Part shown: positions 21,697 to 42,283 of the stretch, piece after piece
How positions within the stretch are numbered: position 1 is the first letter of the stretch
How the letters are laid out: every line of letters begins with the position of its first letter
DNA from: Marivita sp.
GTDB taxonomy: Bacteria > Pseudomonadota > Alphaproteobacteria > Rhodobacterales > Rhodobacteraceae
Length of the DNA: 64,000 bases
Assembly (NCBI RefSeq): GCF_020055675.1
Contig: NZ_JAIPUS010000014.1
Coordinates: 1-64,000, forward strand
Direction: 5' to 3'
Program-made: the position numbers and the translations under genes
The notes under the pieces: model-generated
Told to the model about the DNA's origin: nothing
The model's database searches: none
What the model saw: only the letters and a program-made list of their open reading frames with translations

Positions 21697-22074
21697 AATG
21701 AATCATCATTCGGTCTTGAGTCGCGCATGCGCCGGGCGCTCTTGAACGAGACCAAGTTCCAAAACGTGGGCCATGCCCGCAGCGTGATCCGGGATTGGAC
21801 CGCCGATTTCAACGAAAAACGCCCGCGTTTGGCACTTGGCTACCAGACGCCCAAGGCATTTGCCGCGCAACTTACCGCCGCACCCGACATCTGGGCCAAC
21901 CTGCGCATCAACCCAAAGCGCTCCAGTCTCAACTGGATCAAAGTTCAGTCGCAGATCAGTCCCTCGATCCGGGGTAAATGTTCGCTACCTCATGACGTTT
22001 CTTTAATCAGGCGTTTTGCGAAAACCAGACGCATAGATTTACCTGAAAGCCGGTGCGACCTCCGTTCGTTGTAA
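21697..22074 (+). pseudogene. IS3-family transposase remnant (OrfB C-terminal fragment)
   Basis: The frame carries ALLNETKFQNVGHARSVI followed by WTADFNEKRPRLALGYQTPK, matching the end of the integrase core of IS3-type OrfB (typically ELLNET ... W..DYN..RPH..LGY.TP). The DDE residues and most of the protein are missing and the sequence after about 21900 is unrelated. This occupies most of the 447 bp between the GntR gene and the FliD-like gene, marking the boundary between the peptide operon and the flagellar region. Confidence 0.75.
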
Positions 22075-22136: not shown

Positions 22137-23876
22137 ATGGTTGATATAAAGCCCCCGTTTTTTTCAAACACTGGCAGTCCCCCGTCCGAACGCGGCCTGA
22201 CGACGGATGCAACATCGCGACAGGCTGACGCGACCGTGAACACCCATACAGCGGCAAAGACTCAACGTGTGGCCGACAGCGTTGATACCCGGATTTCCGT
22301 CAAGGCCCGCATTCTCAAAGCTGTCAGCGGCTTCAGATCATCGGTTGGAGCGGTGAACGGGACAGACTTCAAGATGACAAGCACCGCCCCAAGGACCGCG
22401 TCCATTGGGATGGAAAATCCGGCGCTCGCCAAGACATTCACTGCAAACATCGCCATACGGCAACTGGCAGCGCCCCAGATAACCGTGTTCAGACTGGCCC
22501 AAAGCGCAACACCCGACACGGTATTGCAGTCTACTGCCGACCCGGTGAGGCTGACCACCGTACAAGCGGGCCAGCAGCCGGGGCAATCGCAACAGGCTGG
22601 ACAGACCTTGGTTATTAGCCCTGACAACGATACGCTCAAGGCCCTTGTACAAAGCCTGAATGGCATATCGGGGATCAAAGCGTCGCTGTTGCAAACAAGG
22701 GAGGGGCTGGCGCTTCTGGTCAAAACCCGGTCGGGGTCCCTTAACGCGCTGGAGCCAGGCTCCATCGTCGCACTGCGGCGCCTGTTGCAACCCGCCTTAC
22801 CATCGGGCGGCCAGCTCCTTGTGGTGTCGACCGGAGGGATTGCAGCCAAGGACACGATGGGCGATCTGAATGGCAGGCCCTTCGTGCATGCTGCGACCGC
22901 GATGGACACCCTTTTGCCGGGCTATCACATCACCGCCCATGCGCCCGGCCTGGCACGCCTGCAATCCGAGGAAACCATAGCGTCCCTGCAAAAACGCGTA
23001 GCGACGTTGCTGCGCGAGATGAACACCCTGATCACGTTTCTTGTGAATACGGCGCAACGCGGCACGGGTGTGGCAACGGCCTCGTCGCTGTCAGATCGGA
23101 TGATCGCGCAAGTCTTGCTTGATCGGCTGCGCAAGATTGTGTCGCGACCCATCCATGGCTTTAGATCCGACCCAGTTTTTCCCGCCGATCTGGGGATCGG
23201 ATTCGACGCTGCAGGGTTTATGAAACTGGAGGAAGGTCGGTTCACCCGTATGGCCAAGTCCAAGCGTGAGATGGTCGCGGCGATCCTCGGACCCGACGCA
23301 GGGCATGATGGCGCCGCGTCACCGCGGGACGGGCCGCACCTGTTGCATGGGGCCGTCCATCGGTTGGTCTATGACCCGACGCACACCCCGGTTGTCGCCA
23401 CGTTGAACGGAATACCACTGGCCACGGGACAGGATGCTCTGGGGCGGCCAGTTTTGACCTTGCGCAGACAAACACAAGAGGTTTCCATCGTGTTAAACGC
23501 GCAGGAGCCGATCACCACGGACATCGCCTATGGCCAAAGCCTTTTGGACCAGATGACCGATTTTGCCACTGCGGTTCTTGATCCCGCCGATCCTTTGCTG
23601 CGTGCAGACCCGGCAGCCGATGGCATGCCCTACGCTGCCGAACCCGAGGTCGCACAGGCAGATGCCCTGGTTGCTGCCATGAACGTTCGGCAGATCGTCC
23701 AAGACGACGCGGTGCAAACGAATGCCATCACCGCGCTGCCCCCCCAAGTGGCAGAATTCATGGCCTACTTGTTGTGGATCGGGCTGTTCATTCCCGATGT
23801 CAAAATAGACCGCCGCAAGAAACGCCGCACCCAGACGCCCCGTGGCTGGCGACGCAAGCGCCCCGACCCGAGCTGA
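22137..23876 (+). CDS. Divergent FliD-like (flagellar cap) paralogue
   Basis: A 579-residue protein that aligns with the FliD encoded at 25881-27530: SDRMIAQVLLDRLRKI, RPIHGFRSDPVF and LGIGFDAAGFMKLEEGRF correspond to SVLDRLRGITTQPIPGFGDEPVF and LGIQTERDGSLTLNESVF. A flagellin-IN-like module (LVQSLNGISGIKASLLQTRE) lies near 170-190. Unlike FliD it has a long unrelated N-terminus with a Gln-rich patch (AGQQPGQSQQAGQ), no C-terminal coiled coil, and ends in a hydrophobic stretch (FMAYLLWIGLFIPDV) and a very basic tail. GAGGAG precedes the ATG. It is on the opposite strand to fliD, separated by the IstB/fusion pair. Function unproven. Confidence 0.7.
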   Translation: MVDIKPPFFSNTGSPPSERGLTTDATSRQADATVNTHTAAKTQRVADSVDTRISVKARILKAVSGFRSSVGAVNGTDFKMTSTAPRTASIGMENPALAKTFTANIAIRQLAAPQITVFRLAQSATPDTVLQSTADPVRLTTVQAGQQPGQSQQAGQTLVISPDNDTLKALVQSLNGISGIKASLLQTREGLALLVKTRSGSLNALEPGSIVALRRLLQPALPSGGQLLVVSTGGIAAKDTMGDLNGRPFVHAATAMDTLLPGYHITAHAPGLARLQSEETIASLQKRVATLLREMNTLITFLVNTAQRGTGVATASSLSDRMIAQVLLDRLRKIVSRPIHGFRSDPVFPADLGIGFDAAGFMKLEEGRFTRMAKSKREMVAAILGPDAGHDGAASPRDGPHLLHGAVHRLVYDPTHTPVVATLNGIPLATGQDALGRPVLTLRRQTQEVSIVLNAQEPITTDIAYGQSLLDQMTDFATAVLDPADPLLRADPAADGMPYAAEPEVAQADALVAAMNVRQIVQDDAVQTNAITALPPQVAEFMAYLLWIGLFIPDVKIDRRKKRRTQTPRGWRRKRPDPS

Positions 23877-24027: not shown

Positions 24028-24816
24028 TCAGGTCCTGCGGCTGAATACCTGCGCAAAACCGGGCTTTCGCGTTTCGTGCGGCTCTTCATGCATGGTCTTG
24101 CGCAGCGAGTGCCCCTCAAGTTCGAACCGCTGGGCCTGATGTACCAGTCGGTCCAAAATTGCGTCCGCAAATGTCGGATCCGCAATCGTGTCGTACCATT
24201 TTGCGACGGGCAACTGACTGGTGATGATCGTTGATTTCCGTCGGTACCGTTCGTCAACGAGTTCCATCAGGTCGCGCCGCTCGGTCGGTGAGAGCACATC
24301 CGGCCCCCAATCGTCGATGATCAGAACGTCCGCACGAACGACCTTGCGGAACAACCGGTCAAAATTGCCGGCCTCGCGGGCTGCAGCCAGATCGGCAAAA
24401 AGCTGTGGCATTCGGTAGTATAAAACCGGATGATCCTGACGGCACGCTTCAAAGCCCAATGCGCAGGCAAGGTATGACTTGCCCACACCGCAGGGTCCTG
24501 TGATCAGAATGGACTTGCGCGACCGGATCCATTCGCCATCCCGAAGCTTTTCGAACTGCGCCCGATCAAGATTGCGCTGAACCTGAAAATCAACCGTGTC
24601 CATCGTTGCGCTTTCATCGCGCAGTTTGGCTGCCCGCAAACGGCTTTGGAGACGGCGGGTATCCCGGATGGATTTCTCACGTGAGGCCATCAGGCTGATC
24701 CATTCGCTCGGATCCTGAGCACGGCTTGCGTCATGTGCGAGGAGTTCCGCATAGACATCCGCCATTCCATCAAGTTTCAAGGCGCGCAACATCTGGTAAG
24801 TGGGGTGATTGGGCAT
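24028..24816 (-). CDS. istB: IstB-type AAA+ ATPase (IS21 family helper)
   Basis: A complete 262-residue IstB: N-terminal helical domain (MLRALKLDGMADVYAEL), Walker A GPCGVGKS (residues 107-114), Walker B VLIIDDWG (164-171) and the TSQLPVAKWYDTIADPT sensor region. In IS21 elements IstB forms ATP-dependent oligomers on target DNA and activates the IstA transposase. Here no full istA is present: the gene 14 bp upstream keeps only the IstA C-terminal domain. All motifs are intact, so the protein may still be functional, either as a helper in trans for other IS21 copies or in a domesticated role. Confidence 0.93.
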   Translation of the reverse strand: MPNHPTYQMLRALKLDGMADVYAELLAHDASRAQDPSEWISLMASREKSIRDTRRLQSRLRAAKLRDESATMDTVDFQVQRNLDRAQFEKLRDGEWIRSRKSILITGPCGVGKSYLACALGFEACRQDHPVLYYRMPQLFADLAAAREAGNFDRLFRKVVRADVLIIDDWGPDVLSPTERRDLMELVDERYRRKSTIITSQLPVAKWYDTIADPTFADAILDRLVHQAQRFELEGHSLRKTMHEEPHETRKPGFAQVFSRRT

Positions 24817-24830
24817 TCAGCCGGTCCTTT

Positions 24831-25808
24831 TCAGTAAAAGTAATTGGCGCCGCGAATATTCGCATGCGCCATATCAGAGGGGTCAGAATCCGTCTCGTCC
24901 ATATCCATGGAACGTCTGGCCTGTACGTGTGACATCACTCCGGTCAAAGACACCTCACCGGCGTCAAGGGCTTGTGCACAGGCGTCGTCAAGATGGTTGT
25001 CGCTGGTGTGTTTCAAGGCCAAAATCCCCTCGCATCGGCGAAGCGCGATCACCGATTTGGGGTCTTCGTTCAAAACATGTTCGATCAGGGCCAGTACATT
25101 CGGCCCGACCCTGCGCGCCTCGTCACAAAGGCGTTGAACTTCGGATTGCGATACCGTGTCTTGCGCGGCCTGAGAAGGCGGTCTGTCGGTGGGACCGGCC
25201 CCATCCTCGGACCTTTGCGGTTTTTGCGACGTCGGGGTTTGCTCTGGGGCCGGTGACGTGTTTTGCGTCGTGGCGGTCAACCGGTCGGGCTTATTCGTAG
25301 CGGTGGTTGGCGTTGGCTTTTTCTGTTCCCTAGTGGGATCTTTTGACACGACCTGGGGTGTCCGTGCAGCGGCCTTTTTCTTTTGTGGTTTTGGCGCGCG
25401 CTTGACTGGGGCTACCTCAGGAGGAGAGGCATCCGCCGGATCGGCAGATGCGAAGCCGGCGCTTTTCCTGCGTTCCGCCAGACTGTCAAGGCGCGCACGG
25501 ATCGCCTTGGTGTTTTCCTGCCGTTGTTTGGCCACAAGATCGCCGCCACTATCGACCATGTTTTGGTTTTCCGCCGCCACCCTGCGCGCGTCCGACATCG
25601 ACAGCCCCGGGAAATTTCCCAGAACCACCTTGCGTGGCTGACCGTTGATCCGGATGTGTTGCACCCAGATTTTCTCGCCATTGCCGCGAACGCGCAAGAA
25701 CACACCGGCACGCCATGTTTCGTCGCTTCGGCGTTGCTGCCGACCGAATTTTGCATTCACGGGTCTTGATCCTGGCTTGTGCGACACGGGCTTATCATCC
25801 TCAAGCAT
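24831..25808 (-). CDS. Chimeric protein: integrase-type Arm DNA-binding domain, linker, IS21 IstA C-terminal domain
   Basis: A 325-residue protein with three parts. Residues about 35-95 (GVFLRVRGNGEKIWVQHIR, then VVLGNFPGLSMSDARRVA) match the N-terminal Arm/DUF4102 DNA-binding domain of P4-type tyrosine integrases. Residues 96-220 are a K/P/T/Q-rich low-complexity linker. Residues 222-325 (EARRVGPNVLALIEHVL, ILALKHTSDNHLDDACAQAL, and final HANIRGANYFY) match the C-terminus of IstA, the part that engages IstB. No DDE catalytic core and no tyrosine recombinase core are present. It is followed 14 bp later by istB, the normal istA-istB spacing, and begins 72 bp downstream of fliD on the same strand. 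The domains are seen; the function is unknown. Confidence 0.72.
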   Translation of the reverse strand: MLEDDKPVSHKPGSRPVNAKFGRQQRRSDETWRAGVFLRVRGNGEKIWVQHIRINGQPRKVVLGNFPGLSMSDARRVAAENQNMVDSGGDLVAKQRQENTKAIRARLDSLAERRKSAGFASADPADASPPEVAPVKRAPKPQKKKAAARTPQVVSKDPTREQKKPTPTTATNKPDRLTATTQNTSPAPEQTPTSQKPQRSEDGAGPTDRPPSQAAQDTVSQSEVQRLCDEARRVGPNVLALIEHVLNEDPKSVIALRRCEGILALKHTSDNHLDDACAQALDAGEVSLTGVMSHVQARRSMDMDETDSDPSDMAHANIRGANYFY

Positions 25809-25880
25809 GAGCCCGATCCCATGTGGTCATATTACCGGCATCCTAACCGACCATGCGAAAAGGGATCTTCTGATGCGACG

Positions 25881-27530
25881 TCAATTGTCGCTGTTCCATG
25901 AATCCATAAGCGACTGCATGTATTCGCCGGTCTTGTTAAGGCTGGTGATGACCGCCTCCATGCGACCGAACTGTATATTGTAGCGTTCCGTCAGGGCCGC
26001 GGCCTTTTCGTCCAGGGTTTCCAGCGACAGTTCGAATTCCAGCAAGTCTTCGCCAAGTTGCGTTTCTCGGCGTGCCAGAACGCCGTTGCGGCCAAGCAGC
26101 TCTTCGGCATAGCTGCCCATCTGGTCCACAAGGCTTGTGCCGTAGCCCACGGTTGTGCTGATAGCGACGTCCTGATCAAGTGTCATGACCATGCCATTGG
26201 TGCCGTCGTTGGTCGACCGCAGGACGATTTGGCCGGCGTTGTTGGTGCTGACGGTCAGGGCCTCCCCATTCAGCGTTGCTGTGGCGGGTGACGTCGCGGG
26301 ATCGTAGACCAGATCGTAGCGGCCTGGCTCCGGTGGCGCGAATGACAGGCCGGTGACTGAAACCCGGTCGTCATCGGCACTGTACTGTGTGGCGAAAATC
26401 GCCTGTGCCATGTCCGGGTTTTCGGAAATGCGCGTGTCGAACACGGACTCGTTGAGGGTCAGGCTGCCATCCCGTTCAGTCTGGATGCCAAGCTGGGCCA
26501 GAAAGACGGGCTCGTCACCAAAGCCGGGGATCGGTTGTGTCGTAATGCCCCTAAGGCGATCCAGCACGGATTGCGCGGATCGGTCTCCGGCCAGCGGCCC
26601 CGGTTCGGCCCCGTTGAGACCGCGCTGCGTGGCCGTCTCCAGATAGGATTTAAGGGCGTTCACTTCGGCCAAGAAACCGTTGACGCGGTCTTTGAGAGAG
26701 GCGCTTGTTTCTGCCGATGTCAGGTTGGAGGTTCCGACGGCATTCAAGGTCAACGTGTGACCTGCGAACAGATCATCAATCTCGTTCGACCCACGCGTGA
26801 TCTGAAGCCCGTCCACGTTGAAACTGGCGTTTTTCGCGACGGTTTCCGCGGTGGCGGCCCCGAGGGGGTTTTTTGCGCTGTCGGTTTCACCGTCCACCGC
26901 ATCTGCGGTCATGCCGAGTGCGGTTTTCACGGCTGTGATCGAGTTCGCGTCAAGCGCGCTGTCGATGCCGTCTTCCGCCTTCACGACCATCGCAAGACCG
27001 TTGCCGGTATCAAGCAAGGACGCGGTCAGGCCTTCGACGCCGTTGATTGCATCCGCCAGCCCGCCAAGAGTGGCCGCGTTGGTGCTAATCTCCGCGGTGC
27101 GGGGGTCTGTCCAGGCCGGAGTATCCAGGGAAATGGACCCGGTGGAAACGGCAGTGCTCCGGGTTGTGTTGGCATCGAACTGAAACGTCAGCACCTGCGG
27201 CGAGGCGAGTTCCTCAACTTCAATAGCTGCGGAAATGTCCTTTGCGGTGGCTTCGTTGGTCACGTCGATCGAAACGGCACTCGACGAGCTGCCCGCGCCG
27301 CGAGAAGCGGTTTCGGCGGCGCGCGACATGCCGTCCCGGAAAAAACCGACCTCCTGGGATAACTGCCCCATGGCGGAGATCGTGGTATTCGTGTCCTCGA
27401 CCCGGCGCTGCGTCAACGAGCGCTGGCCACCGGTTTCCGCCTCCACAAGGCCAGACACGAGGCTTTTCAACTCGATCCCGCTGCCCGAGCGATTGAGTGT
27501 CGATATGATGTCTGGTCTGGTGTCGCTCAT
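25881..27530 (-). CDS. fliD: Flagellar filament capping protein FliD (HAP2)
   Basis: A 549-residue FliD. The N-terminus (IISTLNRSGSGIELKSLVSGLVEAE) and the C-terminal region with GYGTSLVDQM and the heptad-like end (LEFELSLETLDEKAAALTERY) are typical; a flagellin-IN module sits near residues 150-200 (LADAINGVEGLTASLLDTGNG). The protein caps the growing filament and helps flagellin fold. A FliA-type promoter lies just upstream (27555-27581), as expected for a late flagellar gene. The gene points away from flgB. Confidence 0.92.
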   Translation of the reverse strand: MSDTRPDIISTLNRSGSGIELKSLVSGLVEAETGGQRSLTQRRVEDTNTTISAMGQLSQEVGFFRDGMSRAAETASRGAGSSSSAVSIDVTNEATAKDISAAIEVEELASPQVLTFQFDANTTRSTAVSTGSISLDTPAWTDPRTAEISTNAATLGGLADAINGVEGLTASLLDTGNGLAMVVKAEDGIDSALDANSITAVKTALGMTADAVDGETDSAKNPLGAATAETVAKNASFNVDGLQITRGSNEIDDLFAGHTLTLNAVGTSNLTSAETSASLKDRVNGFLAEVNALKSYLETATQRGLNGAEPGPLAGDRSAQSVLDRLRGITTQPIPGFGDEPVFLAQLGIQTERDGSLTLNESVFDTRISENPDMAQAIFATQYSADDDRVSVTGLSFAPPEPGRYDLVYDPATSPATATLNGEALTVSTNNAGQIVLRSTNDGTNGMVMTLDQDVAISTTVGYGTSLVDQMGSYAEELLGRNGVLARRETQLGEDLLEFELSLETLDEKAAALTERYNIQFGRMEAVITSLNKTGEYMQSLMDSWNSDN

Positions 27531-30156: not shown

Positions 30157-33100
30157 ATGTCCTTCTACACTGCTTTGACGGGCCTCAATGGCGCACAATC
30201 CGACATATCGGCGACGTCGAACAACGTCGCAAATGTCGGCACCACGGGTTTCAAGCGTTCACGCGCCGAGTTTGGTGACATCTTTGCCACCTCGCCGTTG
30301 CAGAACAACTCATCCGCGATCGGTTCGGGCGCGATCCTGAAGGGGGTCAAGCAGCAGTTCACGCAGGGCAACATCGCGTCCTCACTGAATGCACTGGACA
30401 TGGCGATTTCCGGCCAGGGTTTTTTCGCGCTGAAGCCCAGCCTGACGTCTACCCAGGTGGTCTACACGCGCAATGGCTCGTTCAATGTCGACAACAATCG
30501 AAACGTCGTGGACAGCTCGGGACAGTTCCTGCTGGCCTATCCGGTCAACGAAGACGGGTCGGTGACCGCCAAGGATATCAACAGCGCCTCTCCGTTGCGG
30601 TTGCCGGTGACATCCGGTGATCCGCAGGCGACGTCCATGGTTGATCTGGCGGTAAATGTTCCGGCCAGCGCGGATGTGGTGACCGAGAAGGAAAAATTCG
30701 CAGACGGCTACACTTTTGATCCCGAAGATCCCGAAAGCTTTACGAATTCGACATCATTCACGATCTTCGACGATCTGGGCAATCCGACGATCGCGACGGT
30801 CTATTTCATCAAGACGCAGCGTGCGACGGCCGACGATCCGACCAACAAGTTCGAGACCCGCCTTGTCATCAATGACGAGGTTGTGCCGCCCGATCTGGTG
30901 CCGGCTGTCACCAGCTCTGACGAGCAGATATTTATTGACCGGTTTGGCAACCAGACGACTTCGGTGCCGGACGACAGCTTTACCCTCGAGGGAAAGAGCT
31001 CTCCGCTTTACAAGCTCGATGAGCAGAATGACCGCGTGCCGTCAAAGCCCGCGGCCCTGACCGGGCAGGAAAGCAGCTTCAACTTCGGGGATGAGGGTAC
31101 GGGCGAAATCGAAATTGTCACCGACCCCATGCAATTCGGGGCCACGTATGAAGCAAATCCCGACGCCAACCAGGGTGTTTATTGGGGGCGTGATTTTCTT
31201 CTGGTGAACATCGACGACGGCACGCGTCCAGTGAGCATCGATGTCAGGGCGGGCCGGTATAATGCCGAGCAGCTGGCCGCCGAGGTGGAGCGGGCGATCA
31301 ACGCGGCCCATGACGATGCCCGCAAGCTTGAGATTCAGAAAGGTGTGGATGACAAGATTTCCTTGCAGCTTTTCCAGCCAACCACATCCGGAGATGCGCC
31401 GGTAGACAGCGAGCCGCTGGAGGTTGATCTGCTGCAACCGTCCTTTGTTTCAATCCAGGCCGGGATGGATTTGTCGGAAAGCACGTCGCCAAATTTCGAT
31501 CTTGATGTGTTTCTTGCCCATGCGCAAACGCGCCTGAACGAGACTTTGAACAGTGATCTGGGTTCGGGTTTCGTTCCGGGCGCGTCGGACAAGCAGTTTG
31601 CGCAGTTGACAGGCGGGGCCAAGATATCCGAACCGCCAGCGGACCCGGAAGTTTTTGACTTCAAGTACACCACGCGCGATCTGGGTGTCACTACTGTGTC
31701 CAGTTCATCAGACAGGTGGGGGGTCGCCTATAACAGCGGAGAATTCACGGTTTCCGATTTGGGTGGGACGTCCGTTGAAGGTGATGTAACCATCACCTTT
31801 TCTGACCCGGCCCTGACTGACCTGACCGTGGATATCGCGGCTGATGATGATGAAGCCGTAGTATTGGAGTCAATTGAAGCGGCGCTAAAGCAAACGGATT
31901 ATTTCGGCACGGTTCTTTTAACTGAAGCTAGCGGTTCGACGCCGGCCAGAGATTTTGCCATTCCAAAAGACCGTCATTTGGCCTACACAAATGTCGGAAA
32001 TCGACCAACGGTGGGCGTGTATGATCAAAAGCTCGCAGTTGAAGATGCAGCAGACACTATAAGCTTTGACTCCCAAAATAACCGTTTGGTTATCACAATG
32101 GATGATATTGCAGCCGGTGACTACAATGTCGGAGATACGATCCTGCTCATGGGTGCGGATGAGGATGCTGAGGCGCTAAATGGCCGGAATTTCCGGATTA
32201 CGGACATTGACGTAGACAATGACAAGATCGAAATTGCAACCGGTGGTCTTGGGCTCCCTGAGGGCGATATAAACATTTCTGGCGGAGGCTACTTTGTGCT
32301 GTCCGGACGATCCTCGGATGTTGAGGCCTATTTCGAGGGTGCGGATCTAAGTGTAGAGGGGTCTGCCACAAGCTTTAACAATCAGCGGCTTGTTGTGCGC
32401 GAAACGGATGCCGCGCGTCATGGGTATAGCGATACTGATCTGAATACGGACTTCTCTGTCAATATCTTTAATATTGACCCTACGGGCAACGTGACCGATT
32501 CTGACGCGAAAGCCGCTACACTTGGTCTCGATAATGGCACCACAGCCATGGCTTGGGTGGATGAGTTGAATCCACCCATCGAAGTCGCATATGATGCCGC
32601 GACGCAAAGTATTGTCTTCAATGTGGATCACACGACATTGGGGCCGGGCGGCGCAATCAGCAATCTGTCCGCGATACAGGTCTCTGGTGGCAGCGACTCG
32701 GGCGTGAACGCCTTTGGTCTGGCCGGCAATTCCTCTCCACGGGTCGAGATCACCAGCGCGACCAGCGTCAAGGGGCAGCCTTTTGTCTTTGACGGGGCGA
32801 ACCTGGGCGATGGTCCCACGCGGTTCGGCGCCAAGGTCAGCTATGACCGCGAGACACGTGCCTTTACCTTTGAAAGTGGGACGACTGGCGAGGCGATTAC
32901 ACAGGACAAGGCCTTGGGTGTTCCGACAACGCAACAAGCCTCTAATATCCAGGTTGGTCGCTATGAAATTGATCCGACAACAAAGTCCGCGCGTGTCGGA
33001 GCAGGAACTATTGACCTCGCGTCGCGTGTGCTGGCGTCGGGCGAAAACGATCTTATGGGCGTGGGCAGCAGCAAGAGTGTCAGCTTTGCCGAAGGGACGG

Positions 33101-34131
33101 GCCTTCAATCGCTCCCGGCCCGTGCAGTGGGCGCGCCGGCGACCGATCCGTTGAATTCCAACCCCGTTTTCCTGAACCCGGCGAACAAGGAAACGACATT
33201 CAATGTGTCTGTCGACGGAATCAACGCCGTGATCGACATCCCTGGCGGCAACTACATCGGATCGAGCCTGGCCGAGCGGCTTCAGGAACGTATCAACCAG
33301 ATGCAGGATCCCATCACCGGCAATACAATCGGTGGCGTCACCGTGCGGTACCAGCCGGACGACAACAACTTTGTCTTTACCACCGGAACAACCGGAGATG
33401 AATCGACCATCCGGGTCCGGGGTCCGGCCAAGCTTGGTCTTGACGATGTTCCGCTCGGTATCGGAAGCGTGCCGTCGATCGCCAACCTTGTCCAGGCCAC
33501 CAACGAAAACGGTGTCCCTCTGTTCGTGAACGAAAACGGCGAGATCGTCGACTCGGAGCCGGACAATCTTGTCGAGGGCTATTTCCCGCTTTACCTCAAT
33601 GAAGGTGAGCTGACCTTTGACAAGACGGGCCAGTTGATCAGTCCGCAGGGTTTGACCCGCTACGAAGCGCAAACCGAGACGTTCTCGATCTCGCTCGATA
33701 TCGACTATAGCGACTCGTCGCAGTTGGCGACGCCCTTCGTGGTCAATAACCTTGAACAGAACGGCTTTACATCCGGTCGTCTTGACGGGTTGGACATCGA
33801 TGCCACGGGTCTGTTGCGGGCCAATTACACCAATGGGCAGAACAAACCGTTGGGCAAGATCGTGATGGCAAACTTCAACAACCAGAACGGCTTGAAACAG
33901 GTCGGCAATGCAACTTTTGTCCAGACGGCCTCGTCGGGGGATCCGATCATCGGGGAAGCCGGAACCGAAGGGTTTGGGTCGATCCAGTCCGGTGCGCTTG
34001 AGCGGTCGAATGTGGACATCACCGAGGAGCTGGTCAACCTTATCACGGCGCAACGAAATTTCCAGGCGGCGTCCAAGGCGATAGAAACCTCGACGCAGTT
34101 GACCCAGACGATCATCAATATCCGTACATAA
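30157..34131 (+). CDS. flgE: Flagellar hook protein FlgE, greatly enlarged (1324 aa)
   Basis: A single frame with an intact FlgE N-terminus (MSFYTALTGLNGAQSDISAT, SNNVANVGTTGFKRS) and C-terminus (NVDITEELVNLITAQRNFQA, IETSTQLTQTIINIRT). FlgE usually has about 400-450 residues; here some 900 extra residues lie in the middle, exposed on the hook surface in known structures. Two segments have flagellin-IN-like character (RPVSIDVRAGRYNAEQLAAE and VIDIPGGNYIGSSLAERLQE). The part at about 31,880-32,640 is visibly richer in A+T than its flanks, suggesting inserted domains. AGGAGAG precedes the ATG. An intrinsic terminator follows the gene. Confidence 0.93.
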   Translation: MSFYTALTGLNGAQSDISATSNNVANVGTTGFKRSRAEFGDIFATSPLQNNSSAIGSGAILKGVKQQFTQGNIASSLNALDMAISGQGFFALKPSLTSTQVVYTRNGSFNVDNNRNVVDSSGQFLLAYPVNEDGSVTAKDINSASPLRLPVTSGDPQATSMVDLAVNVPASADVVTEKEKFADGYTFDPEDPESFTNSTSFTIFDDLGNPTIATVYFIKTQRATADDPTNKFETRLVINDEVVPPDLVPAVTSSDEQIFIDRFGNQTTSVPDDSFTLEGKSSPLYKLDEQNDRVPSKPAALTGQESSFNFGDEGTGEIEIVTDPMQFGATYEANPDANQGVYWGRDFLLVNIDDGTRPVSIDVRAGRYNAEQLAAEVERAINAAHDDARKLEIQKGVDDKISLQLFQPTTSGDAPVDSEPLEVDLLQPSFVSIQAGMDLSESTSPNFDLDVFLAHAQTRLNETLNSDLGSGFVPGASDKQFAQLTGGAKISEPPADPEVFDFKYTTRDLGVTTVSSSSDRWGVAYNSGEFTVSDLGGTSVEGDVTITFSDPALTDLTVDIAADDDEAVVLESIEAALKQTDYFGTVLLTEASGSTPARDFAIPKDRHLAYTNVGNRPTVGVYDQKLAVEDAADTISFDSQNNRLVITMDDIAAGDYNVGDTILLMGADEDAEALNGRNFRITDIDVDNDKIEIATGGLGLPEGDINISGGGYFVLSGRSSDVEAYFEGADLSVEGSATSFNNQRLVVRETDAARHGYSDTDLNTDFSVNIFNIDPTGNVTDSDAKAATLGLDNGTTAMAWVDELNPPIEVAYDAATQSIVFNVDHTTLGPGGAISNLSAIQVSGGSDSGVNAFGLAGNSSPRVEITSATSVKGQPFVFDGANLGDGPTRFGAKVSYDRETRAFTFESGTTGEAITQDKALGVPTTQQASNIQVGRYEIDPTTKSARVGAGTIDLASRVLASGENDLMGVGSSKSVSFAEGTGLQSLPARAVGAPATDPLNSNPVFLNPANKETTFNVSVDGINAVIDIPGGNYIGSSLAERLQERINQMQDPITGNTIGGVTVRYQPDDNNFVFTTGTTGDESTIRVRGPAKLGLDDVPLGIGSVPSIANLVQATNENGVPLFVNENGEIVDSEPDNLVEGYFPLYLNEGELTFDKTGQLISPQGLTRYEAQTETFSISLDIDYSDSSQLATPFVVNNLEQNGFTSGRLDGLDIDATGLLRANYTNGQNKPLGKIVMANFNNQNGLKQVGNATFVQTASSGDPIIGEAGTEGFGSIQSGALERSNVDITEELVNLITAQRNFQAASKAIETSTQLTQTIINIRT

Positions 34132-37966: not shown

Positions 37967-40900
37967 ATGGCCAGCTTGCTCGAAATCGGAAGGAGCGCGA
38001 TCAACGCACAGCGCGAAGCGTTGAACGTCACCGGTCAGAATATCGTCAACGTCAACACGGAAGGCTATCGCAAGCGCGATGCCAACCTGTCCGAAGTTTC
38101 CGGTGTTCAAAGCGAGTTGACTGCCCTGACGGCGCAAACCGGGCTGGGTGTTCAGCTTGGCGAGGTGCGGCGCGCTTATGACTCTTTTCTGACCGAAAGC
38201 AAGCGCACGGCGTCGGGCCGGTTCGAATCTTCGGATGCGTTCGTGCAAAAGCTTGAGCGGTTGCAAAACACCGTTCTGCCGAATGACGGCGATTTGGGAT
38301 CGACCCTGACCGCCTTTTTCGACACGCTCGGTGAGGTTGCCGCGCGTCCTGGTGATCTAGTGCCGCGCGCTGCCGCGATGGAAATGGCTCAAACGGTCAG
38401 CAACGCATTCAACACAACGGCGTCGCTTCTGCAAGAATTGGGCGATGGCACGTTCGACGAGATTTCAACACGGTTGAATAAAGTGAACCAGAACCTGAGC
38501 GCACTTGCATCCGTCAATGGCAAGTTGCGGTCATCAAATCTTGGGGGCAATCCGCCCAATACGTTGCTGGATGAACGGGACCGGCTGATTGATGCGCTGT
38601 CCGCAATGGTCCCGGTCAGCGTTTCGATCGGTAATCGCTTTGAGGCCGAGGTTCGTCTTGGCGCTTCGGATGGCGGGCCGCTTATTGTGACTGGCGAGGA
38701 CAGCAAGGTTCTGGCGTCAGGGATCAGCGATCAGGGCAACATCTTTTTCCGGGTTGGGGCGGGGCAGACCGTTTCGCAGCTGGAAACCGGCGGCTTGCGT
38801 GGTCTGGTCGACGCATACGGAACCACCCTGCGCGCGAGCAACGAGTTGGACATGCTGGCGCGGAATTTCAGCAATGGCATGAATGCGCAGCATGCGCAGG
38901 GCATAGACCTTGAAGGTCAACTGGGCCGTGAGATGTTTGCCGTAGCACAGTTTTCGCCGACGCTCGGTCGCGCGAACGAGGGTACGGCTGAGGCGACGAT
39001 ACGTCTGGTTCCCGGCCGGGCCGACAGCCTTGACCGCATGCAAATGAGCTATGCGGCATCCACGGATCGGTGGATCTTGAAGGATGATACCGGAGCCGAG
39101 TTGGCGACGGGGCGGACACGGCTTGAAATCGACGGCGCGGTGATCGACGTGACTGGGACGCCTGCGGATGGCGATACCGTCACCTTCACCCGCGATCCGG
39201 GCGATGCGTCTCGGATCGCGTTTCTCTTGAACCGACCCGAAGAAATCGCGGCGTCGTCCACCACTGTGATCTCACCGAAGACGACCAATCTGGGATCAGC
39301 CACTTTGACATCGCAAGCGGCGGAGGGCGAAAGCTCGGGTATCGCGCCATTGACGGATGTATTGGCCAACAACCTGTCGCCGGTGGCGGCGCAAGAATTG
39401 TTGCGGGGCGGCGTGATCGGCAGCATCCCGCGCGGGACCAAGGATATCAGCCTCGCCAGCCTGGCCACGCAGACGACCGCATCCATAGCGGCCAAGGTCG
39501 ACGCGGATATCGGGGCATTCACCCTGACGCTGGACGGCGTGGATCACAATTTTGCCGTGCAACCAAGCGACGTCGCCCAGACCAGCTGGGAGACGGGCGC
39601 GGAAATTGCAAAATATCTTGATATGGGTGTGTTCAAATCCTCGGTCGCGGGAGAGACCCTTCGGGATCTGGGTGTAAGCGTCGCGGGGTCGGCCACCGGG
39701 TTGGCCTTTGCATCCGACGGATCGCGCAGCTTGACCGCAGCCTCCGCGGTGTCGTCTTCGGGGTCGTCGATCGGTGCCTCCGTGACACAAGGGCAGGAGG
39801 CGTCGGATATCCGGGTCTTCACCCGAGAGGGCCGGCAGATCGCGGGTATACCGCTCAATACGGATGAGGTTGCCAATCTTCTGACCATTGATAACGGCTT
39901 TGCAAGGGAAGCGGAGTATCGCGCGGACTACAATTCCGCAGCGGGGGGCGTCGGCTATCGCGGTATTGATGTCACGCAAAGCCAGATCGGCGCATCGCCG
40001 CTGACAGGCGGTGCGCAGAAGGTATCCGCCAGCCTTATCGGGCTTTCGGCAGCGACCGGAACAACGCTTTCGGAAGGCAATGTCGGGATTTCCTCGAACA
40101 GCGCTGTCAACCAGACGCAAGGTCAGACGATCACCCTGGATATGGCCACAGGCTTTGTTCGGTCTGCCACGATCCCTGCGGGGGCTGATGCCGCCCTCGT
40201 CGCGGATCGTGCCAACGAGTCCTTCGCGCCTGTTGGTGTTCAGGCCAATGCAATGACGGCGCTGCGCCTGTCGCTTGATCCGTCGGCCACGGATGGGTCG
40301 GTTCAATTTGATCTTGCCGGTCTTGATGGCGCTCCCTTGACGATTTCGGCACAGATAAGCAATGGCGATCTGAATGCACTGGTCAGCGCGGTCAACCGTC
40401 TGAGCGATGACACCGGGATCAAGGCAGAATTGTCGTTGTCCGGCGATGCGGTGACGTTGATTCAGGACGATGGGTTCGACATCGCCATCAGCAACATTTC
40501 CCCGAACGGTGTCGGTTTCGGCGCGGTTGCCCTCGATCAGGAATTCAAACCGTTGAGCCGTGGCGAAACTTCGACATTCGCCAGTCCGTTTCTGAATGAA
40601 ATGCGGGTCAGCGGCACCGTCTCGTTCCTCAGCACGTCCGAATTCGCGATCAGCAGTGACGCGACAGGGGCCGAGACTCTGATCTCCGACTCCGAGCCGG
40701 TAACGGGTGGTCTGGTGGCGCGTGAGTTCTCCAATGGCGGAACAGCGGCGTCGCTGATGTTCAATATCGACCCTATGATTGACGGACCCTCGACCAGTGT
40801 CGACGGGACCAACGTGCATGCGCCGTCCGCGCGCTACGAGGCGGCGGTGACCGCTGACAATGGGCCGAGCTTTACCGGCATCGTATCGGCTGCGGATTTG

Positions 40901-42283
40901 GCGGCAGGCACCCTGTCTGGCGATGGGGTCGCACAGGCCATGGCGGCCGAATTGCGTGCACAGGCCCCGGTGCCGGCCCTGACAGGCGCTGCGCGCGCAA
41001 TCGGGGATTTCCCGCCCGTGGGGACGACGTCGCGCTTCACGCTCGGCGGTGCGGAGTATACCCTGACACGGGTCGACGGCGGTGACCCGACCCGCCTGAC
41101 GGCCTTGGATTTCGAGATCACAGGCCCGGAAAACGGGCGTTTGGTCCCCCGTGTGGATGAAGTGAACGGCGATTTTGCGCTGTCACTTGATGTCGTGGAT
41201 GGTCAGTTGTCGGGCGCAGGCCCTGTACCCGTGTCGGAATCCACGGCGGCACAATTCGGGCTGAGCACCGCGCTGACGACGCCGTCATTGCAGGGGCGCG
41301 CCATCGCGTCGAATCTTGCTGATGGGGACTACTCGATCGACGTATCGCTGAATGGGGTGTCGGCCAGCCTGACCGTAACGAAGTCGGAAACTGGCATAAC
41401 CGTTACTGTGCCCCCAGGTTTGGCTGAAAGTCTGGACGCAGGGATCGAGGCGGACGCAGAAGGTAACGACATCCTTGTTTTGAGTGCAAAACAGCCCGGT
41501 CTCGGGCAGTTAAGCGTGACAGGCGGTGACCACGCAACCGCGCTTGGCCTCAAGATTGGCACAGTGGACCTGACTGTTGATGCCGGCGCGCTGAACGCCC
41601 GTAGTACGACGGCTTCGGCGATTGACGTGGTGGCGGGTGCGACCAGCGCTGCCGGATCCTATCTGCACCTGACCGACCTGCCTGATGAAGAACTTATCGT
41701 CGTCATGGGTGATAGCGGTGCCAAGCGGATCGCGGCCCAGTTCGAGATTGGTTCCCCAGCTGGTGCTGCGGACCGCAAACAGGAAAGCTTCCGGGTCGAG
41801 ATGATGGACGATGGCACCGGGCGCGTTGAACTGTTTGACGAGGAAACGGGCGCGTCGATCGCGACGCGGACATCAAACGGTCTGGCGCGTTTCAACGTCT
41901 CGGGGCAGGATGTCGAGCTGTCGGGATTTGCCGAAACAGGTGATACTTTCACCTTGGTGACGGGACGACGGTCGCCGGGCGATGCCCGTAATCTGGACGA
42001 GATGTTAAGCCTTGGCCAACAGCGGACTGGATTTACAAGCTATCAAGACGAATTCCGCTCCATCGCCGCAGGTGTCGGCGCCACACTTGACGCAGCGCGT
42101 TTGACCAGAACGTCAAATGAAGCGGTTTATGAAGCGGCTGTGGCAACGGAAAGCGAACTGAGCGGGGTGAACCTTGACGAAGAGGCCGCCAAATTGATCG
42201 CGCAACAACAAGCATATCAGGCGGCGGCACGCATTCTGCAAAGCGCGCGTGAGATGTTCGATACCCTTATCCGGATTTCGTGA
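37967..42283 (+). CDS. flgK: Hook-associated protein FlgK (HAP1), greatly enlarged (1438 aa)
   Basis: The N-terminus (LLEIGRSAINAQREALNVTG, QNIVNVNTEGYRKRDANLSE) and the C-terminus (SELSGVNLDEEAAKLIAQQQ, YQAAARILQSAREMFDTLIR) are typical FlgK. Usual length is about 450-700; here roughly 800-900 residues of acidic, Ala/Ser/Gly/Asp-rich beta-type sequence are inserted in the middle, including flagellin-IN-like stretches (LNALVSAVNRLSDDTGIKAE). One continuous frame with no sign of fusion of two genes. It joins hook and filament. Confidence 0.93.
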   Translation: MASLLEIGRSAINAQREALNVTGQNIVNVNTEGYRKRDANLSEVSGVQSELTALTAQTGLGVQLGEVRRAYDSFLTESKRTASGRFESSDAFVQKLERLQNTVLPNDGDLGSTLTAFFDTLGEVAARPGDLVPRAAAMEMAQTVSNAFNTTASLLQELGDGTFDEISTRLNKVNQNLSALASVNGKLRSSNLGGNPPNTLLDERDRLIDALSAMVPVSVSIGNRFEAEVRLGASDGGPLIVTGEDSKVLASGISDQGNIFFRVGAGQTVSQLETGGLRGLVDAYGTTLRASNELDMLARNFSNGMNAQHAQGIDLEGQLGREMFAVAQFSPTLGRANEGTAEATIRLVPGRADSLDRMQMSYAASTDRWILKDDTGAELATGRTRLEIDGAVIDVTGTPADGDTVTFTRDPGDASRIAFLLNRPEEIAASSTTVISPKTTNLGSATLTSQAAEGESSGIAPLTDVLANNLSPVAAQELLRGGVIGSIPRGTKDISLASLATQTTASIAAKVDADIGAFTLTLDGVDHNFAVQPSDVAQTSWETGAEIAKYLDMGVFKSSVAGETLRDLGVSVAGSATGLAFASDGSRSLTAASAVSSSGSSIGASVTQGQEASDIRVFTREGRQIAGIPLNTDEVANLLTIDNGFAREAEYRADYNSAAGGVGYRGIDVTQSQIGASPLTGGAQKVSASLIGLSAATGTTLSEGNVGISSNSAVNQTQGQTITLDMATGFVRSATIPAGADAALVADRANESFAPVGVQANAMTALRLSLDPSATDGSVQFDLAGLDGAPLTISAQISNGDLNALVSAVNRLSDDTGIKAELSLSGDAVTLIQDDGFDIAISNISPNGVGFGAVALDQEFKPLSRGETSTFASPFLNEMRVSGTVSFLSTSEFAISSDATGAETLISDSEPVTGGLVAREFSNGGTAASLMFNIDPMIDGPSTSVDGTNVHAPSARYEAAVTADNGPSFTGIVSAADLAAGTLSGDGVAQAMAAELRAQAPVPALTGAARAIGDFPPVGTTSRFTLGGAEYTLTRVDGGDPTRLTALDFEITGPENGRLVPRVDEVNGDFALSLDVVDGQLSGAGPVPVSESTAAQFGLSTALTTPSLQGRAIASNLADGDYSIDVSLNGVSASLTVTKSETGITVTVPPGLAESLDAGIEADAEGNDILVLSAKQPGLGQLSVTGGDHATALGLKIGTVDLTVDAGALNARSTTASAIDVVAGATSAAGSYLHLTDLPDEELIVVMGDSGAKRIAAQFEIGSPAGAADRKQESFRVEMMDDGTGRVELFDEETGASIATRTSNGLARFNVSGQDVELSGFAETGDTFTLVTGRRSPGDARNLDEMLSLGQQRTGFTSYQDEFRSIAAGVGATLDAARLTRTSNEAVYEAAVATESELSGVNLDEEAAKLIAQQQAYQAAARILQSAREMFDTLIRIS

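Follow-up and report, generated by a model that had tools for sequence, protein, structure and literature searches.

What is an intact istB gene doing beside a gene whose product joins part of an integrase to part of a transposase, and has the catalytic core of neither? The two genes lie in a 64,000-nucleotide stretch of Marivita sp. DNA, analysed whole and referred to here as the window. They form a domesticated transposition module: not an IS21 element, there being no transposase, and not an integrase. Selection has very probably maintained the two genes together, as one unit, in a rare type of flagellar gene cluster. The features concerned are these, in window coordinates:

22137–23876, plus strand: FliD paralogue, converging on istB and its neighbour in the L043 MAG too (30% identical to the window FliD, E 3e-58)
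24028–24816, minus strand: istB, AAA+ helper ATPase (262 aa), Walker A GPCGVGKS at residues 107–114 (IS21_help_AAA, motifs, omega, tree)
24831–25808, minus strand: fusion gene (325 aa), Arm domain–linker–IstA C-terminal tail (ORF and translation, Pfam, IstA alignment, relatives)
25518–25712, minus strand: Arm DNA-binding domain, residues 33–97 (PF13356, known structures, omega)
25146–25460, minus strand: linker, residues 117–221, K/P/T-rich (omega, no gaps against L043, low pLDDT)
24834–25145, minus strand: IstA C-terminal tail, residues 222–325 (L065 IstA alignment, omega)
24834–24866, minus strand: terminal hook HANIRGANYFY, residues 315–325 (motif in four fusion proteins, omega, IstA ends)
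25881–27530, minus strand: fliD, upstream of the fusion gene (FliD_C 6.6e-29, FliD_N 6.2e-9; 58–59% to the Octadecabacter and G293 FliD)
28609–63644, no strand assigned: flagellar gene cluster flgB to flhB, the context of the pair (tblastn with Octadecabacter plasmid proteins)

The preliminary description of this locus had an integrase-type Arm domain, a linker and an IstA C-terminus joined in one frame before istB, and the open reading frame, Pfam and BLASTP confirm it. Both frames are open on the minus strand. The gap between them is 14 bp (24817–24830), and 72 bp separate the fusion gene from fliD on the same strand (25809–25880), both as first described. Arm-DNA-bind_3 (PF13356) matches at 1.5e-10, with 41.5 bits against a cutoff of 27. 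In sequence, this head resembles arm-type domains of known structure (3ju0, 8.2e-6; 3jtz and 3rmp, 1.2e-4), and Foldseek matches a low-confidence model of it to 3jtz (E 6e-3, probability 1.00); the model, built from a two-row alignment and with a mean pLDDT of 51, is useful for the Arm head only. No tyrosine-integrase catalytic domain was found after the Arm, which is the only Pfam match. No transposase or recombinase core was detected in the protein at E<=1, the one other Pfam row being a sub-cutoff DUF (0.081); rve and Mu-transpos_C_2, both detected in the complete IstA of locus L065, have no match in it at the same threshold. The DDE core has been lost and no tyrosine-recombinase core has replaced it, as had been said, and the IstA beta-barrel has gone too. 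The linker is K/P/T-rich, again as described, and mostly below 50 in pLDDT, but it had been given 125 residues and its unconstrained part is nearer 105.

IstB, for its part, is as intact as was claimed. It matches IstB_IS21 of Pfam at 1.5e-63 and NCBIfam IS21_help_AAA at 4.1e-73, above cutoff, and retains its Walker A motif and a Walker B motif, VLIIDDWG. In a PADLOC profile comparison that took in four proteins, the DrmD model matched it at 3.6e-22, a far poorer fit than that of the IS21 helper model; a profile alone can label IstB-type ATPases as defence proteins.

The fusion is not confined to one strain. The same architecture, Arm–linker–IstA tail beside a related IstB, occurs next to istB in three further genomes, making four copies in four. 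The closest, L043, is a Rhodobacteraceae MAG and the sole relative of the fusion protein from a scan of GTDB contigs; the two proteins are 78% identical end to end, their IstBs 93%, and in L043 the pair has the same two flanking genes, fliD and the FliD paralogue. The second, in genome G293 of another genus, came from a search of 295 family genomes; its fusion protein has the Arm domain, a P/A/T-rich linker and, of the tail, only HENIRGRDYFS, and its IstB (62–63%) follows 14 bp downstream. The third, on plasmid pOA238_118 of Octadecabacter arcticus 238, is annotated 'Arm DNA-binding domain-containing protein' and ends as an IstA tail, AHGNIRGPQHF. That tail is 39% identical to L065 IstA over 98 residues, the linker before it contains an exact 33-residue duplication, and istB (64%) starts 2 bp after the Arm gene; the gap is 14 bp in the window, L043 and G293. 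PF13356 scores above cutoff in all four proteins. For the Octadecabacter Arm gene, the probable start is an ATG lying 18 codons ahead of the annotated GTG (L071 31604, NC_020909.1), and the residues so added (MLDN...) resemble the window's MLED.... The Octadecabacter plasmid also carries a second, distinct IstB (L072 32052–33085, NC_020909.1 82052–83085), 32% identical to the first; a 74-residue ORF precedes it, and neither neighbour is annotated as IstA.

Searches with IstB matched 6 of 295 genomes of the family at 1e-60 (the window genome, G000, with G293, G050, G123, G221 and G165), 8 of 390 of the order at 1e-75, 1 of 385 of the class at 1e-84 (G000 itself) and 2 of 17 of the genus at 1e-55, the second of these, G003, being a normal IS21; the draws overlap, and such cut-offs would miss pairs whose IstB falls below about 50% identity. 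For the genus of G293, the one genome available is G293 itself. Candidates were set aside where IstA lies upstream of IstB (G050, G221 and G123, the same as L047, whose IstA looks broken), where an IstA tail does (L054, L055, L057, L058, L059, all from the order draw), and where IstB is a fragment without a partner (G165 of the family, L060 of the order); the IstB of L056, also from the order draw, is at a contig edge, its partner outside the contig.

From the side of the fusion protein, the other 18 genomes listed in the family search match in frames of at least 417 aa, integrase length. Among short Arm-only frames, L026, L061 and L062 were rejected, no IstB following them among ORFs of 90–100 aa or more; L011, L063 and L064 gave no NIRG match in a motif scan of 64 loci; the L008 contig ends about 90 bp after the Arm match, with the neighbour outside it; and frames outside the neighbour check include G043:C51, G025:C3 and G067:C346. 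The fusion protein (P0001) matched 739 plasmid records, none covering 80% among the 40 matches listed; the Octadecabacter copy, absent from that list, was recovered through IstB, and the plasmid search is accordingly not exhaustive. Query P0003 found only itself at 1e-6. A phage search returned 11 records, Arm domains and IstA tails, with the neighbourhood viewed for H41 only. Viral contigs had no match to the fusion protein or to query A3, and with query A2 gave L065 and L066 (IS21) and L067 (24%). The pair is not reported among the titles and abstracts listed, a coverage that takes in few subscription journals.

Do the four copies share one origin? In a tree of 20 IstB rows, the four pair IstBs form one clade (100/99) beside L065 and the fragment L060, inside the IstBs of IS21. 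In a tree of 31 Arm domains, the four fusion Arms group together (96/92), apart from the 27 Arms of integrases; this tree has 76 columns and long branches, its bootstrap had not settled, and it left out 7 of 34 integrase loci, which had no Arm segment of 50 aa. One ancient swap would explain both clades and, to judge from the sequences, a single domestication likely lies behind all four pairs.

A gene of this kind might still be the debris of a chance deletion, now decaying. IS debris is indeed close at hand, in the form of the C-terminal fragment of an IS3 transposase (21727–22071, plus strand; rve_3 2.4e-10) with a GntR/FCD regulator on one side of it and the FliD paralogue on the other, and omega in the linker is about 1. 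The rest of the gene, however, does not behave like a relic. Nei–Gojobori counts between the window and L043, a single sequence pair and so without error bars, give an omega of 0.14 for the Arm domain (residues 29–100), 0.07 for the tail (222–300) and 0.11 for IstB, with 0.12 for fliD and 0.27 for the FliD paralogue, and the last 12 residues of the fusion protein show no amino-acid change. A linker free of purifying selection had been named beforehand as a sign against retention. Taken literally, at an omega of 1.06, it is one; but the domains that flank it are constrained, and over 325 codons the length has not changed, as for a spacer. The natural reading is that the linker would be just that, a spacer free to vary while both ends are constrained. 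The fusion gene has a dS of 0.39 and istB one of 0.36; three neighbours have 0.40, 0.55 and 0.52. In its place, the pair therefore appears to be about as old as fliD. The frames are open, moreover, and the architecture is the same in divergent copies whose fusion proteins are only 28–32% identical. Chance fusion and decay thus seem largely refuted by the constraint data, and we find that account scarcely credible. We are confident instead that the pair is a selected, domesticated unit.

What, then, has been selected in the tail? Over residues 176–325, BLASTP aligns the fusion protein with L065 IstA at 32% identity (E 2e-17), and the one ends AHANIRGANYFY where the other ends AHTNIRGAHYFH. The beta-barrel (PF22483) occupies residues 320–383 of L065 IstA and is absent from the fusion protein, so the part kept is the segment that follows the barrel. 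H-x-N-I-R-G is invariant across all four fusion proteins. It recurs, followed by two residues and an aromatic pair, in 12 of the 14 distinct IstA ends seen in full, a biased sample made up of neighbours of related IstBs or of proteins chosen by tail similarity; the exceptions are L042, with N-V-R-G, and L047, where the motif is disrupted. phmmer aligned the IS5376 IstA chain with L065 IstA over 117–338 only, so the tail of the solved IstA may be a different one.

Published structures can be read two ways here. C-terminal parts of IstA contact IstB, according to the accessible text of PMC11208146, but the contact shown in the solved complex is made by the beta-barrel, which the fusion protein lacks, and the same text describes the C-terminal region of IS21 IstA as not visible in the structure, its role yet to be defined. 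For the IS5376 IstA–DNA structure, the available part of PMC10122671 predicts a flexible stretch with two helices over the last 45 residues and describes a contact between Gln369, in the C-terminal region, and a flipped base of the donor DNA. The tail could therefore have been retained for DNA and not for IstB. With head and core lost, though, there would be no donor DNA for it to touch, and this would favour a role with IstB.

Does the pair still belong to a mobile element, or serve one? The nearest complete IS21 to it, L065 1011–3351, lies in a contig filed as viral and has clear multiple end repeats: CATGTGGCCAC occurs at four sites on each side, at no more than two mismatches. Near the pairs it was found at two mismatches, once upstream in the window, once upstream in L043 and in two overlapping copies downstream in G293; there is none near the Octadecabacter pair, and the intact repeat is near none of the four. 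The IS21 terminal repeats looked for around the pair were thus not found in the form that L065 has them, a weak test given that the repeat is missing from L069 as well, although L069 is an IS21 relative. The window pair lies between the two arms of a 10-base inverted repeat, which is absent from the L043 stretches compared. In the Rhodobacterales comparison that had been called for, the window and the MAG keep one gene order around the pair, with the same neighbours. Nor are the intact IS21 copies, whose presence elsewhere was to count against retention, anywhere in sight: at E<=0.001 the window genome has no further IstB, the single match being the pair's own.

Two alternatives turn on these results. 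The pair might be a target selector in trans, directing an IS21 or integrase element elsewhere, much as the Tn7-like selector TnsF of Tn6022 is built from tyrosine-recombinase parts (PMC10293859, in the part available). With a single IstB in the genome, a gene order stable between window and MAG, and IS21 not reported with a target selector in that part of the source, this is very improbable, and the earlier suggestion that the pair helps an IS21 copy elsewhere is unsupported. Alternatively, the pair might protect, by a target immunity that shields the flagellar cluster from IS21-type insertions or by some other defence role. Transposase tails do act on AAA+ partners in related systems (PMC11208146 and PMC9371665, accessible text), and the DrmD model does match IstB, though the IS21 helper model does so far better; but the genome holds no other IstB to guard against, and the beta-barrel and core of IstA are both gone. 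We consider protection improbable.

The reading we prefer draws on the surroundings of the pair. Flagellar genes surround all four copies and belong to one related sigma-54/FliD-type set, whether the pair is carried by a plasmid or by chromosomal contigs; the immediate neighbours differ. This tie to one type of flagellar cluster is new; previously only the neighbouring fliD had been remarked on. When 52 pOA238_118 proteins were compared with the window by tblastn, 34 matched at 1e-4, including fliD (58%), flgG (88%), fliG (86%), fliA (61%) and two sigma-54 regulators (55–64%). The flagellar clusters of the window and of this plasmid are homologous (for Octadecabacter clusters see PMC3646047). 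Gene order on the plasmid is motA-motB-Arm-istB-rpoN. G293 has rpoN, motA and motB no more than 7 kb from its pair, with fliD and flgB-G on another contig; in the window genome, motA is about 3 kb past the window end. A FliD search at 1e-60 matched 9 of the 295 family genomes: G000, G293 (59%) and seven at 31–35%. The pair is present in G000 and G293 only, the two with this FliD subtype, and the other seven have no IstB at 1e-60. The probability of such a coincidence is 2.3e-5 if the two are independent; but the genes of a cluster travel together, so the association shows linkage, not function, and the link between pair and cluster could be plain co-inheritance. A separate FliD draw of 210 genomes gave G000 plus two at 32–34% only.

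The FliD paralogue is 76% identical to its L043 counterpart and 42% to an Octadecabacter 'hypothetical protein', goes unrecognised by the Pfam and NCBIfam FliD models at E<=0.1, and was not seen in G293 within the 19.9 kb that surround fliD. The FlgE and FlgK homologues (30157–34131 and 37967–42283, plus strand) run to 1324 and 1438 aa, far above the usual sizes of these proteins, and match Octadecabacter proteins of 1410 and 1436 aa. According to PMC3646047 (accessible part), O. antarcticus 307 has a flagellar cluster like that of O. arcticus, and similar clusters occur in only three further strains (L. vestfoldensis SKA53, HTCC2083 and Roseovarius sp. TM1035); the two Octadecabacter strains are reported to be non-motile, so visible motility is not needed for the pair to persist. 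The accessible parts of that paper and of two more on Rhodobacterales flagellar clusters of the fla1, fla2 and fla3 types (PMC11974857, PMC12363192) make no mention of an IstB or Arm gene.

Since the unit is tied to one sigma-54/FliD-type gene set, local control of that regulon would be its most likely use. A GAFTGA loop in the AAA+ domain is the mark of sigma-54 activators (bEBPs). The exact string is absent from all 20 IstB rows, and IstB would therefore not work as a usual sigma-54 activator. Sigma-54-like sites with up to two mismatches number 37 in the window against 38 expected by chance; all five with a single mismatch lie 31–54 bp before flagellar gene starts (28555, 34973, 44059, 49065 and 56295, plus strand), and none, at up to two mismatches, precedes the fusion gene. 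Intergenic words shared among the clusters reach a top count of 5, against 5–6 in shuffles, and offer no candidate Arm site.

How might the pair work? Long ago, we suggest, an IS21 IstA lost its front (HTH, DDE core and beta-barrel) and gained a tyrosine-integrase Arm domain in its place, while its tail and the neighbouring IstB were retained. The Arm head would bind short arm-type sites in DNA, and the floppy linker would present the C-terminal hook (HxNIRGxxYF) to IstB. Recruited by the hook, IstB would assemble on, clamp and bend the DNA at the Arm-bound place, and the output might be local control of the sigma-54/FliD-type flagellar regulon through DNA architecture. There are precedents for parts of this. 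IstB oligomers assemble on target DNA and bend it in IS21 (PMC11208146, accessible text); in ShCAST, TnsB hooks onto TnsC by its final 15 residues, carried on a linker whose length and sequence are both unconserved, and hook fragments bind TnsC and alone cause no TnsC disassembly (PMC9371665, likewise).

That the Arm head binds DNA and the hook binds IstB we infer; for a selected, domesticated pair together with this recruiting mechanism, the balance tips modestly in favour. The central proposal of the preliminary description, a retained IS21 module whose Arm domain and IstA tail could recruit IstB, is supported, and it holds against the findings that were to count against it as far as these could be looked for. 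A specific function is not, and can be put only conditionally. Regulation of flagellar genes, suggested by genomic context, is quite possible, although we lean slightly against it. More tentative is the full proposition of a new kind of regulator, a transposase-free AAA+ pair in which an Arm protein with a transposase-derived hook loads IstB at chosen sites to control a flagellar regulon; that a C-terminal IstA residue touches donor DNA lowers its probability. The Arm protein might instead load an IstB clamp that bridges, anchors or compacts the cluster, positioning or maintaining flagellar DNA with transcription unchanged. The bending and clamping of DNA by IstB in IS21 (PMC11208146, accessible text) and the occurrence of the pair on plasmid and chromosomal contigs with different immediate neighbours would suit such a role; nothing links the pair to partition or polarity genes in particular, however, no repeats or sites were found, and we think it unlikely.

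If the recruiting mechanism is right, this would be a natural domain swap in which the part of a transposition system that recruits the AAA+ protein has been freed from the chemistry and put to work in a flagellar gene cluster. The C-terminal region of IstA has been retained beside IstB after loss of the DDE core and beta-barrel and, in the G293 lineage, little of it remains beyond the terminal peptide. The undefined IstA C-terminus would then be a self-sufficient IstB-docking module, already moved onto another DNA-binding head, and the pair suggests a route by which IstB could be aimed with a foreign DNA-binding domain.

Compared with known systems, the pair is closest to IS21 itself (IS5376, the L065 element), with which it shares the IstB family, gene order, 14-bp gap, IstA tail and terminal motif. 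It differs in having no HTH, DDE core or beta-barrel, in having an integrase Arm for a head, and in that the L065 end repeat was not found around it. Its head is the same in sequence and fold as the Arm domains of P4/HPI-like tyrosine integrases (3jtz, 3rmp, 3ju0), except that in the fusion no core-binding or catalytic domain follows. The TnsB hook and TnsC of ShCAST, and the MuA tail and MuB, are likened to the pair by their working, in which a short element at the C-terminus, borne on an unconserved linker, binds the AAA+ partner, and not by hook sequence; in the fusion, that element sits on a transposase-free protein and its binding to IstB is predicted. Likened by working, too, are the Tn7-like selectors, and TnsF of Tn6022 above all, in which DNA-binding parts of a tyrosine recombinase are reused to place an AAA+ ATPase (PMC10293859, in the part available). 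TnsF has core-binding-like domains and acts through TniQ, whereas the pair has no transposon and joins an Arm domain to the tail of IstA.
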